A stretch of 64,000 nt of DNA from Skermanella mucosa (GTDB taxonomy: Bacteria; Pseudomonadota; Alphaproteobacteria; Azospirillales; Azospirillaceae), in NCBI RefSeq assembly GCF_016765655.2, contig NZ_CP086106.1, positions 2,972,501-3,036,500 of the forward strand. The letters are read 5' to 3'. Made by a program: the position numbers and the translations under genes. Every line of letters starts with the position of its first letter. The stretch's first letter is position 1. Positions 20,484 to 24,042 of this stretch are shown here, piece after piece. The notes under the pieces were generated by a model, which did no database searches, had not been told where the DNA came from, and saw only the letters and a list, made by a program, of their open reading frames with translations.

Positions 20484-20852
20484 ATGATACTGACAGACAA
20501 ACGCACCACGCTGGCCGCCGCGGCGGCCCTGGGCGTCCTGGCCGCCACGCCGGCGGCCCTGGCGCACCATGGCTGGGGCAGCTATGACAGCACCGCGCTG
20601 ACGACCCTGGACGGCACCGTCCAGTCCGTGTCCTTCGGCAACCCCCACACCTCGATCCAGCTGGAGGCGCAGGGCAAGACCTGGTTCATCGTGCTGGCAC
20701 CGCCCTCGCGCATGACCACCCGGGGACTGCCTGACGGCACGCTGCGCCAGGGACAGACGGTCAGCCTCGACGGCTATGTCCACAAGAACGAGCCGGCGGA
20801 GCTGCGGGCGGAGCGGATCCGGGTCGACGGCAAGTCGGTCGAGCTGCGCTGA
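20484..20852 (+). CDS. DUF6152-type exported protein
   Basis: The 122-residue product has a signal peptide (basic start, Ala-rich core, cleavage after ALA near residue 27) followed by HHGWGSYD and a compact beta-rich domain with LDGTVQSVSFGNPHTSIQLEA and LRQGQTVSLDGYVHKN. This matches the DUF6152 pattern, whose HHGWxxY start and function are unexplained; an N-terminal HH could bind metal once the signal is removed. GGGAGATCC precedes the ATG. Its stop overlaps the start of the next membrane-protein gene, a pairing I recall from other proteobacteria. Confidence 0.75.
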   Translation: MILTDKRTTLAAAAALGVLAATPAALAHHGWGSYDSTALTTLDGTVQSVSFGNPHTSIQLEAQGKTWFIVLAPPSRMTTRGLPDGTLRQGQTVSLDGYVHKNEPAELRAERIRVDGKSVELR

Positions 20853-21349: not shown

Positions 21350-21393
21350 GTGATTGCGGGGCGGGAACCACGTCCTTATAGTCCCGCCCCATC

Positions 21394-22155
21394 ATGACCA
21401 TCCCGCCGCGCGCTCCCGGTCGCCCCCGTCACCTGCTGGCTCTGCAAGGCATGCCGGCCGCGGAGCTGACAATCCTGCTCGATCGAGCCGACGATCCGCC
21501 CACGGATCGGCCGCTCGCCGGGCGCCGCGTCGGCGGCCTTTTCCCGGCCGATGCCGAACCCCTGCGCGCGGCCTTCGAGACGGCCGTGCTCCGGCTCGGC
21601 GGCGAGGCTTCCGACGATCTGCCGGGCTGCGCCGCGGCACTCGTCCGGCATGCCCGACCCGGCGGCGTCCCATGGGTGGCGAGCCACGCTCCCTGCGCGA
21701 TCGTCAATGCGGGCGACGGCGGCCACGAGGATCCCGTCCGGGCGCTGGCCGACGCCGTGGAGATGCGCCGCCGCCTGGGCGACCTGCGGGGCCGGGTCGT
21801 GGCGCTCGCGGGCGACATCCTGCACCATGGCGCGGCCTTGTCGTCGATCCACATGCTGAACGCGCTGGGCGCCTTCGTCCGCGTGGTGGCACCCCCGACC
21901 CTGCTGCCTCCCGAAATCGACCGGCTGGGCGCCGAGGTCCACCACCTCCCGGGGGACGGCCTGCGCGGGGCCGACGCGGTGATCCGTTACCCGCTCGATG
22001 CCGGGCAATCTCTTGGCACCCTCGTCCCGTCGCGGCGGGAGTTCGACGAGGTCTTCGAGATCAGCGGCAAGGCGCCCCTCGTCCGGACCGATCAGGCGAC
22101 CCTGGCCTCGGCGATCGCCGCCTGCCTCGACCATGTCACCCGCGAGGCTGCGTGA
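21394..22155 (+). CDS. degenerate aspartate carbamoyltransferase-like protein
   Basis: The 253-residue protein aligns with ATCase (PyrB) along its length: HLLALQGMPAAELTILLDRA, FETAVLRLGG, IVNAGDGGHEDPVRAL, VVALAGDILHHGAALSSIHML. The catalytic residues are gone. The carbamoyl-phosphate loop STRTR reads AEPLR (53-58), the roughly 20-residue 80s loop with its Lys is deleted, HPTQ reads DPVR (113-116), the GRT arginine is Ala, and the HPLP motif is not found. Real ATCases are about 300-320 residues. The frame is intact and normal in codon use, so it is not an ordinary pseudogene. It overlaps the next gene by ATGA. A structural or regulatory partner role is inferred; it cannot be an active ATCase by known chemistry. 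Confidence 0.8.
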   Translation: MTIPPRAPGRPRHLLALQGMPAAELTILLDRADDPPTDRPLAGRRVGGLFPADAEPLRAAFETAVLRLGGEASDDLPGCAAALVRHARPGGVPWVASHAPCAIVNAGDGGHEDPVRALADAVEMRRRLGDLRGRVVALAGDILHHGAALSSIHMLNALGAFVRVVAPPTLLPPEIDRLGAEVHHLPGDGLRGADAVIRYPLDAGQSLGTLVPSRREFDEVFEISGKAPLVRTDQATLASAIAACLDHVTREAA

Positions 22156-23381
22156 TGGCGCGGCGCATGGCGTACCGGAATGCGAGGCTGCTGGACCCCG
22201 CCACCGGCCTCGACGCGGCGGGGGCGTTGCTGACCGACGGCGAAGTGATCGCCGACCTCGGCCCGGGGCTGTTCGCCGACGGCGTGCCGGACGGGATCGA
22301 GGTGATCGACCTCGGCGGCCAGTGCCTGGCGCCGGGCCTGATCGACATGCGGGTGACGGCCGGAAACCGGGAGGAGGCGACCCACGAGGCCGCCGCGGCC
22401 GGCGGCGTCACCGCCATGGTCTGCCTGCCGCCGGGCGCGGGCCACGGTTCCGGCTCTCCCGTCCGCACTTTCCATTACGGCCGCGCCACCGACGGATCGG
22501 GCGGCCTCGCCGAGATGGCGCTTGCCGCCCGCTCCGGCGCCCTGGCCTTCACCGACGGCGAAGCCGCGATCGCCGACGCGGCCGTCATGCTCCGCGTGCT
22601 GCGCTACGCGGCCGGCCTCGGACGCCCCGTCATCCAGCACCCGGAGGAACCGGCCCTTGCCGAAGGCGGCCAGATGAACGCCGGCGAAGTGGCGACCCGC
22701 ATGGGCCTGCCGGGCATCCCGGCCCAGGCCGAGGTCATCCTGATCGAGCGGGACCTGCGCCTGGTCGAACTGACGGGAGCCCGCTACCACGTCGCCCACG
22801 TCTCGACCGGTGCCGCCGTGGAGGCGATCCGCGACGCCAAGCGGCGCGGCCTGCCGGTCACCTGCGACACCGCGCCGGCCTATTTCGCTCTGACCGAGAC
22901 CGACGTCATCGGCTACCGCACCGCCGCCAAGCTGTCGCCGCCGCTCCGCGGGGAGATGGACCGGCGCGCCGTCGTGGAAGGCTTGGCGGACGGCACCATC
23001 GACGCCGTCGCCAGCGATCACAGGCCCCACCCGGACGACCGCAAGGATGTTCCCTTCGTGGACGCCGCCTGCGGCATCGTCGGCCTGGAAACCCTGCTGC
23101 CGCTGCTGCTGGAACTGGTCCACAACGGCAAGCTGCCGCTGCTGCGGGCCCTGGCCGCCGTGACCTGCAATCCGGCCGATCTGCTGGGACTGCCGCTCGG
23201 GCGCCTCGCCCCGGGAAAGGCCGCCGACCTCACCGTGTTCGATCCCGACCGGCTGTGGCGGGTCGATGCCGCCCGTTTCGCAAGCCGCGCCCGCAACTCG
23301 CCCTTCGACCGCCGTCCCGTCACCGGCCGCGCCACCCGCACCGTCGTCGGCGGCGCCACCGTCTTCAACCTGGACGCATGA
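22155..23381 (+). CDS. dihydroorotase-like protein lacking the HxH metal motif
   Basis: The 408-residue protein is a type I DHOase homologue (amidohydrolase superfamily). The invariant DxHVH metal ligands are replaced: PGLIDMRVTAG gives Arg66 and Thr68. The substrate loop MPNTxP is CLPPGAG. Other ligand positions persist: QHPEE (His162), AHVSTG (His215) and ASDHRPH (Asp288). This resembles the non-catalytic pseudo-DHOase (PyrC'/PyrX) that assembles with ATCase in Pseudomonas. Here its coupled partner is also degenerate. It is co-translated with the ATCase-like gene and followed by plsY after 28 bp. Confidence 0.82.
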   Translation: MARRMAYRNARLLDPATGLDAAGALLTDGEVIADLGPGLFADGVPDGIEVIDLGGQCLAPGLIDMRVTAGNREEATHEAAAAGGVTAMVCLPPGAGHGSGSPVRTFHYGRATDGSGGLAEMALAARSGALAFTDGEAAIADAAVMLRVLRYAAGLGRPVIQHPEEPALAEGGQMNAGEVATRMGLPGIPAQAEVILIERDLRLVELTGARYHVAHVSTGAAVEAIRDAKRRGLPVTCDTAPAYFALTETDVIGYRTAAKLSPPLRGEMDRRAVVEGLADGTIDAVASDHRPHPDDRKDVPFVDAACGIVGLETLLPLLLELVHNGKLPLLRALAAVTCNPADLLGLPLGRLAPGKAADLTVFDPDRLWRVDAARFASRARNSPFDRRPVTGRATRTVVGGATVFNLDA

Positions 23382-23409: not shown

Positions 23410-24042
23410 ATGCCCGATCCGATAAGCTGGGGTTTCTCCTGGCCCTACCTGCTCGCCGCCGCCGTCGCGGGATATCTCCTGGGGTCGATCCCGTTCGGCC
23501 TGGTGCTGTCCCGGATCGCCGGCTACGGCGACATCCGGAAGATCGGCTCCGGCAATATCGGCGCCACCAACGTCCTGCGCACCGGCAACAAGCCGCTCGC
23601 CGCGCTGACCCTCATCCTGGACAGCGGCAAGGGCGCCTTCGCCGTCCTGATCGCCAAGCAATTCGGTCCCGACGCCGCCGTGCTGGCGGGGGCCGGGTCG
23701 ATGCTCGGGCACACCTTTCCGGTCTGGCTCGGCTTCAACGGCGGCAAGGGAGTCGCCACGGCGCTGGGTGTCCTTCTGGCCATCTCCTGGCCGGTCGGGG
23801 TGATCGCCTGCCTCACCTGGCTGCTGGTCGCCTTCGCGCTGCGCTATTCGTCCCTGTCGGCCCTGGTGGCGCTGGGAATCAGTCCGCTGACCGGCTGGTA
23901 CTTCGCAGGTCCCCAGGTCGGCCAGCTCTGCGCCTTCATCGCGCTGCTGGTCTATATCCGCCACCACGCCAACATCCGCCGCCTGCTCAAGGGCGAGGAG
24001 CCCAGGATCGGGTCGAAGAAGAAGGCCGAATCCGCTTCCTGA
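23410..24042 (+). CDS. plsY: acyl-phosphate glycerol-3-phosphate acyltransferase
   Basis: The 210-residue integral membrane enzyme makes lysophosphatidate from acyl-phosphate and glycerol 3-phosphate. It shows the three PlsY motifs: GYLLGSIPFGLV and IGSGNIGATNVLR near residues 20-55, then GHTFPVWLGFNGGKGVATALG near 100-120, and a C-terminal YIRHHANIRRLLKGEEPRI. Five hydrophobic helices are visible. The ATG at 23410 gives the normal length. It is in the same operon as the pyrB/pyrC-like genes, a neighbourhood I recall from related Rhodospirillales, where dprA commonly follows; here a usp gene does. Confidence 0.95.
   Translation: MPDPISWGFSWPYLLAAAVAGYLLGSIPFGLVLSRIAGYGDIRKIGSGNIGATNVLRTGNKPLAALTLILDSGKGAFAVLIAKQFGPDAAVLAGAGSMLGHTFPVWLGFNGGKGVATALGVLLAISWPVGVIACLTWLLVAFALRYSSLSALVALGISPLTGWYFAGPQVGQLCAFIALLVYIRHHANIRRLLKGEEPRIGSKKKAESAS

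Follow-up and report, generated by a model that had tools for sequence, protein, structure and literature searches.

A degenerate PyrB-PyrC pair maintained by selection in Skermanella, an apparent offshoot of the class A2 aspartate carbamoyltransferase operon

Four of five compared Skermanella genomes carry two overlapping genes for homologues of aspartate carbamoyltransferase (ATCase, PyrB) and dihydroorotase (DHOase, PyrC), which appear to have lost their catalytic residues and nevertheless remain under purifying selection; that such a dead pair is kept in these species suggests that it has a job besides catalysis. The reading that we favor, with a confidence falling just short of even, is that after the takeover of ATCase activity by a CAD-like PyrB the products of the old class A2 operon (here called PyrB' and PyrC') were retained as a complex without catalytic activity, serving in a structural or regulatory capacity.

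The pair was identified in a stretch of 64,000 nucleotides (hereafter the window) of Skermanella mucosa, whose genome comprises 7,840,710 bases, with a first contig of 6,407,183 bases. The coordinates and the overlap of the two genes given in the initial annotation were correct; both genes lie on the plus strand, and the locus includes the following features (positions are those of the window):

21354..21382, plus strand: promoter-like TTGCGG - 17 nt - TATAGT, read by eye
21358..21390, no strand assigned: inverted repeat GGGGCGGGA / TCCCGCCCC with perfect 9-base arms (21358-21366 and 21382-21390), lying over the promoter-like site
21394..22155, plus strand: PyrB', putative pseudo-aspartate carbamoyltransferase, 253 aa, loop-stripped
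21553..21567, plus strand: AEPLR (PyrB' residues 54-58, by alignment) where STRTR, the carbamoyl-phosphate motif, is expected
21730..21741, plus strand: DPVR (PyrB' residues 113-116, by alignment) where HPTQ is expected
22155..23381, plus strand: PyrC', putative pseudo-dihydroorotase, 408 aa, its start overlapping the PyrB' stop by one base (TGATG)
22350..22358, plus strand: RVT (PyrC' residues 66-68, by alignment) where the metal-binding HVH is expected; the Arg is also found in relatives
23410..24042, plus strand: plsY, downstream of pyrC' and common to all five Skermanella genomes

The comparison covered the window's own genome (S. mucosa, G000) and four others (G001, G002, G003, and G004); the pair is present in G000, G001, G002, and G004, and both genes are absent from G003. 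Because four genomes show the same state, a sequencing error is an unlikely source of the degenerate pair. A pyrB'-pyrC' fusion was also considered, as the PyrC' frame extends upstream without a stop to 675 codons in the window, and it was rejected, since the counterpart frame of G001 has only 408 codons.

The initial annotation described both proteins as lacking catalytic residues, and alignments with intact PyrB proteins and with solved DHOases point the same way. PyrB' was aligned with the intact PyrB of relatives (26 proteins, 24 from the same family and two from the same class). This alignment reproduced the changes listed in the initial annotation, in which AEPLR replaces STRTR, DPVR replaces HPTQ, and the 80s loop is deleted, and added two more, i.e., the disappearance of the HPGP (240s) segment and the presence of HG instead of SR in 'DILHSR'. 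The intact proteins contain STRTR (23) or STRTL (3), HPTQ, HPGP, and HSR without exception, and KKGE in 25 of 26. The STRT motif, the 80s-loop Lys, HPxQ, HSR, and the 240s HPGP, which are catalytic parts of PyrB, are each disrupted or missing in every one of the four PyrB' proteins; the single letters that survive are the S of STRT and the Q of HPTQ (one protein of four each) and the P of HPTQ (all four). Some conserved PyrB residues near the old active site, R85-H86 among them, are still present. In 171 alignment columns, 25 or all 26 of the intact PyrB proteins share the same residue; 60 of these columns are preserved by all four PyrB', 34 are missing from each of the four, and 55 carry other residues in each of them (the rest are mixed), and since these deletions and replacements are shared, the degenerate state is, judging from the alignment, older than the split of the four Skermanella species.

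PyrB' falls below the curated PyrB cut-offs (96.5 of 263 bits for NF002032 and 59.9 of 236.95 bits for TIGR00670). Against solved structures, its profile scored 64.9 bits with the CAD ATCase 5g1n, slightly above the 61.6 bits obtained with the Aquifex aeolicus ATC (3d6n_B); as this comparison slightly favors CAD, the assignment to a class A origin is based on the locus and on PyrC', and not on the score. PyrB' is regarded as the PyrB of the family because of the locus order, the grouping of Skermanella PyrC' with that of G007 in the PyrC' tree (support 95/91), and an identity of 46-53% with the PyrB proteins of the 26 relatives over about residues 81 to 221-233. In both PyrB trees, i.e., the final one, built without argF and without CAD-like rows, and an earlier one lacking the CAD-like PyrB of G055 and G110 (missed by motif extraction), the stem branch of PyrB' is very long, too long for placement within the family. 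The segments deleted in PyrB' carry trimer contacts in E. coli ATCase, and the ancestral PyrB trimer may therefore not form. AlphaFold single-chain models of the two proteins, based on two-sequence alignments, had mean pLDDT values of 38.4 and 31.2, too low for the models to be used.

For PyrC', the replacement of HVH by RVT was confirmed against solved DHOases. The earlier statement that three other ligand positions are kept was right as to their retention and wrong as to their number: four were found (D134, H162, H215, and D288), all of them unchanged in the four Skermanella PyrC', with H215 altered in nine of 25 non-Skermanella PyrC'. A metal site may remain in PyrC' despite the HxH loss. 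Of the 25 aligned non-Skermanella PyrC', 24 have Arg where HxH begins with His, and the second His survives in three of the 25 (the tree and the counts omit the partial PyrC' of G041, which lies 10 bases from a contig end); therefore, Arg at this position is not a new change. The loss of HxH is accordingly no peculiarity of the Skermanella pair; the missing segment in the MPNT region, in contrast, looks Skermanella-specific: PyrC' has 407-411 aa in the four Skermanella and 420-431 aa in the 25 complete others (a difference of about 15-20 residues). PyrC' remains below the cut-offs for active type I dihydroorotases, with 369.5 of 645 bits for NF006558 and 257.5 of 279.05 bits for TIGR00857, a subfamily model, which is the curated limit that it approaches most closely. 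Its best solved match was 4yiw (230 bits), and 3d6n_A scored 210.7 bits.

In the class A2 holoenzyme, two PyrB trimers combine with three PyrC' dimers to form a dodecamer. In the class A2 ATCase of Pseudomonas, the inactive DHOase-like protein, pDHO, is needed for PyrB activity (PMC7053772). Among 18 genomes of the family in which both genes were located, PyrB and PyrC' are adjacent in 14, and in the other four they are placed on different contigs (G009 and G019) or far apart on one contig (G015 and G021). The distances in G015 and G021 are about 170 and 230 kb, respectively. In the four relatives inspected closely, the order is pyrB-pyrC-plsY, and hence the Skermanella pair very likely sits at the ancestral pyrB-pyrC locus, as had been suggested from the neighboring plsY. 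The view of both losses as a single new event was not upheld, since an inactive PyrC' is family-wide and represents the known class A2 situation, and only the PyrB half is new. The Skermanella pair has the gene arrangement of class A2 (pyrB with an HxH-less pyrC-like gene, usually adjacent), and PyrB' would not be the catalytically competent PyrB chain that this class also comprises.

The whole-genome search for a genuine pyrB and pyrC proposed in the initial annotation yielded an intact second PyrB (with STRTS) and a class II PyrC, both outside the window:

G000:C1:5622597-5623451 (L013 8589-9575): second, intact CAD-like PyrB, passing both ATCase cut-offs
G000 C1:4467794-4468816: class II PyrC

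Each of them occurs in all five Skermanella genomes, the second PyrB always containing STRTS, HPTQ, and every further signature motif that was looked for. Among solved structures, this PyrB matched best the CAD ATCase 5g1n (326.4 bits vs 86 bits for the A. aeolicus ATC), and it is the apparent working ATCase of Skermanella. The class II PyrC exceeded the curated limit in all 23 family genomes searched, so that active DHOase need not depend on the locus of the pair. As every one of the five Skermanella has an intact second PyrB and a class II PyrC, these seem to have displaced the old pair. One more sequence of the window's genome, G000:C1:2258581-2259819 (L016), in which HVH is retained, scores above the pyrC_multi cut-off and also above that for allantoinase AllB (361.7 of 357.85 bits).

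In a survey of 240 genomes of the class, the CAD-like PyrB was found at E <= 1e-60 in six, including the window's own, and a PyrC' relative at the same limit in 154. In 151 of these 154 genomes, PyrC' was accompanied by a PyrB of class A type (E <= 1e-100), the exceptions being the window's genome (1.5e-41), G148 (2.1e-70), and G041 (no match at 1e-30). At the survey limits, both the CAD-like PyrB and PyrC' were present in the window's genome only (1/240; the other Skermanella were outside this draw), and none of the other five genomes with the CAD-like PyrB had PyrC' at E <= 1e-60. As the spread of the CAD-like PyrB across the class is patchy, we infer that it was gained horizontally.

These distributions bear on the idea that the CAD-like PyrB has the pair as its scaffold or regulator, in the manner of pDHO and the PyrB of Pseudomonas. 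The dependence of that PyrB on pDHO for its activity (PMC7053772) and the co-occurrence of the pair with the CAD-like PyrB in four species would fit it, but the CAD-like PyrB also occurs in G003, where the pair is missing, all five other genomes of the class with this enzyme are without PyrC' at the limit used, and the replacement belongs to another subfamily. Since the five non-Skermanella genomes and G003 do without the pair, it is, on these distributions, apparently not required by the CAD-like PyrB in general, and we consider a scaffolding role for it improbable.

The sequences flanking the pair were compared in the five Skermanella. A similar promoter-like site precedes pyrB' in the four pair-bearing genomes and plsY in G003; a consensus promoter scan did not report the site at 21354..21382. 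A transcript begun about 7 bases past TATAGT would be nearly leaderless. The inverted repeat at 21358-21390 is an operator candidate: its 7-base core has a single match in the window, where 0.05 would be expected, and is kept in all four pair-bearing Skermanella. In G003, plsY, a stress-protein gene, and nhaD are found in order, pyrB' and pyrC' are both missing, and a CobD/CbiB-like gene is located upstream of plsY (L099 6800-9900). Just before this plsY, there is a GATTGC-18 nt-TTATAGTCC element, which resembles the pre-pyrB' element of the other four genomes; the inverted repeat of those genomes is absent there. The G003 state would most simply be explained by a single deletion reaching from the promoter into the plsY leader, and since this lineage is without both genes, the pair is dispensable in it.

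The same-strand order of the promoter-like site, pyrB', pyrC', and plsY in the four genomes could also mean that the pair is retained since plsY is transcribed through both genes, the frames serving plsY expression. However, this leaves the constraint at the amino-acid level unexplained, and in G003, which has no pair, plsY immediately follows a promoter-like site of similar sequence; there is, in our opinion, little to be said for such a position effect.

To assess selection, dN/dS was calculated by the Nei-Gojobori method for all six species pairs of the four pair-bearing Skermanella. The values were 0.216-0.371 for PyrB' and 0.178-0.244 for PyrC', with the highest upper limits of a codon bootstrap (five of the six pairs) at 0.511 and 0.329, respectively. 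Neutral simulations starting from PyrB' at the G000-G004 divergence (four settings of 60 runs each, i.e., 240) gave mean dN/dS values of 0.96-1.12 and a minimum of 0.64. It was thus shown that selection maintains both proteins, as the initial annotation had argued, and its own test for decay, a dN/dS near 1, gave simple decay no support; with 0.18-0.37 observed and about 1 in the simulations, neutral decay is rejected for the four species. No internal stops were found in the compared PyrB' and PyrC' reading frames of the four species, and the genes therefore do not have the marks of pseudogenes (stops or frameshifts, and dN/dS near 1). As 35 of the 240 neutral runs were also stop-free, the lack of stops is by itself weak evidence. 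Changes were heaviest at the third codon position, e.g., 103 between G000 and G004, against 57 at the first and 53 at the second position. For comparison, dN/dS was 0.033-0.140 for plsY (ten pairs, G003 included), 0.02-0.12 for the CAD-like PyrB, and 0.125-0.214 for the upstream ORF at 20852 (six pairs); PyrB' and PyrC' are thus less constrained than either plsY or the CAD-like PyrB, and about as constrained as the upstream ORF or slightly less so.

The main rival in our weighting is that a displaced operon is slowly being lost, with no real function and only a residual cost of change, e.g., through misfolding or leftover interactions. Such a dying relic would account for the absence of the pair from one of five Skermanella, for a constraint lower than that on plsY and the CAD-like PyrB, and for the very long PyrB' stem branch. 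We nevertheless judge it unlikely, since the four genomes contain no internal stop, the dN/dS limits are far under 1 and were never reached in the neutral runs, and the losses predate the split of the four species.

Segment-wise dN/dS, computed for four species pairs, was lowest for PyrB' 136-200 (0.13-0.21), PyrC' 1-66 (0.10-0.19), and PyrC' 116-300 (0.11-0.19). Weaker constraint was found in PyrB' 41-80 (0.32-0.58), corresponding to the former STRTR/80s loop, and in PyrC' 67-115 (0.34-0.52), behind HxH. PyrB' 81-135 (0.16-0.54), PyrB' 201-253 (0.28-0.50), and PyrC' 301-408 (0.32-0.42) were relaxed as well. The old ligands D134, H162, H215, and D288 fall in the most constrained part of PyrC', the segment pattern as a whole not being clean.

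The position of these four metal ligands would suit an enzyme with a new substrate, i.e., a divergent transcarbamylase or amidohydrolase, and some annotated pseudo ATCases are real ureidoglycine transcarbamylases (PMC4581275). However, the carbamoyl-phosphate motif has disappeared from PyrB' together with several loops, and Arg in place of the first His likewise occurs in PyrC' of relatives with intact PyrB. As far as is known, the whole transcarbamylase family requires a working carbamoyl-phosphate site, and with the motif and the 80s loop gone PyrB' would have none, in disagreement with another transcarbamylase of the ureidoglycine or YgeW type. New catalytic activities are thus given a very low probability.

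For the preferred reading, a non-catalytic PyrB'-PyrC' complex, we counted the low dN/dS values, the age of the shared losses, the unchanged ligands of PyrC', the replacement enzyme, the joint presence of both genes in four of five genomes, their joint absence in one, and the conservation of the promoter-like site and the repeat in the four; we counted against it the state of G003, the constraint lower than that on plsY and the CAD-like PyrB, the unclean segment pattern, the survival of some residues near the old PyrB site, the slightly better CAD match of PyrB', and the deletion of segments with trimer contacts. The sequence of events would have started from the class A2 ATCase operon of the family, pyrB-pyrC'-plsY. 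A CAD-like PyrB encoded elsewhere would then have taken over the ATCase activity, after which PyrB' may have shed its catalytic motifs, PyrC' probably being already without HxH, as in the relatives. Both proteins have stayed under purifying selection after this loss and might still bind each other like their ancestors. The persisting complex could serve a structural or regulatory role, perhaps by holding a metal or a metabolite via the four kept ligand residues of PyrC'. We more tentatively propose that both holoenzyme subunits were turned into a pseudoenzyme complex, which shed its loops following the takeover and acquired, with its own promoter and an operator-like repeat, the character of a non-catalytic sensor or structural complex.

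The pseudoenzymes known to date usually pair a dead partner with a live one. In Skermanella, both subunits of a core-pathway enzyme appear to have outlasted their chemistry, and the availability of intact relatives, a replacing enzyme, and a pair-less lineage makes Skermanella a direct test case for the non-catalytic functions of a metabolic complex. It should be stressed that the label 'aspartate carbamoyltransferase', if applied to the locus of the pair, would be misleading. A dead PyrB retained beside PyrC' was not found reported among openly licensed PMC papers, and the available parts of two Skermanella genome papers do not mention pyrB, carbamoyltransferase, or dihydroorotase. A scan of GTDB 220 (one genome per species) with strict exact PyrB' peptide patterns, in which records near the window's genome may be omitted, returned a single relative, S. 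stibiiresistens.

By homology, the known part of the system would be the inactive PyrC', as in class A2, and the new part the degenerate PyrB'; the pair may accordingly be described as a putative derivative of the class A2 ATCase operon without the active PyrB by which that class is defined. It resembles the Pseudomonas class A2 ATCase (PMC7053772) in combining pyrB with a DHOase-like gene whose product is inactive, and the relatives of Skermanella share this pairing of an intact PyrB with an HxH-less PyrC'. The difference is that the Pseudomonas PyrB is active and needs pDHO, whereas the active site of Skermanella PyrB' appears to be lost and both proteins are shorter. Homologues of both chains form one complex in the class A1 DHO-ATC dodecamer of Aquifex aeolicus (3d6n and 4bjh; PMC3880350), in which both chains are catalytic, unlike in Skermanella, where neither protein seems to keep its catalytic residues; the Aquifex chains are also not the best solved matches of the Skermanella proteins (5g1n, with 64.9 bits, and 4yiw, with 230 bits, are). 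In the fungal CAD-like URA2 (PMC4581275), an inactive DHOase likewise stays in a pyrimidine assembly, but only the DHOase part is dead there and the ATCase is active. Finally, the trypanosome AdoMetDC/prozyme system is reported to provide a dead paralogue (PMC5201418) retained for a non-catalytic role in a complex; there, however, one dead partner activates one live partner, whereas in the Skermanella pair both would be dead.
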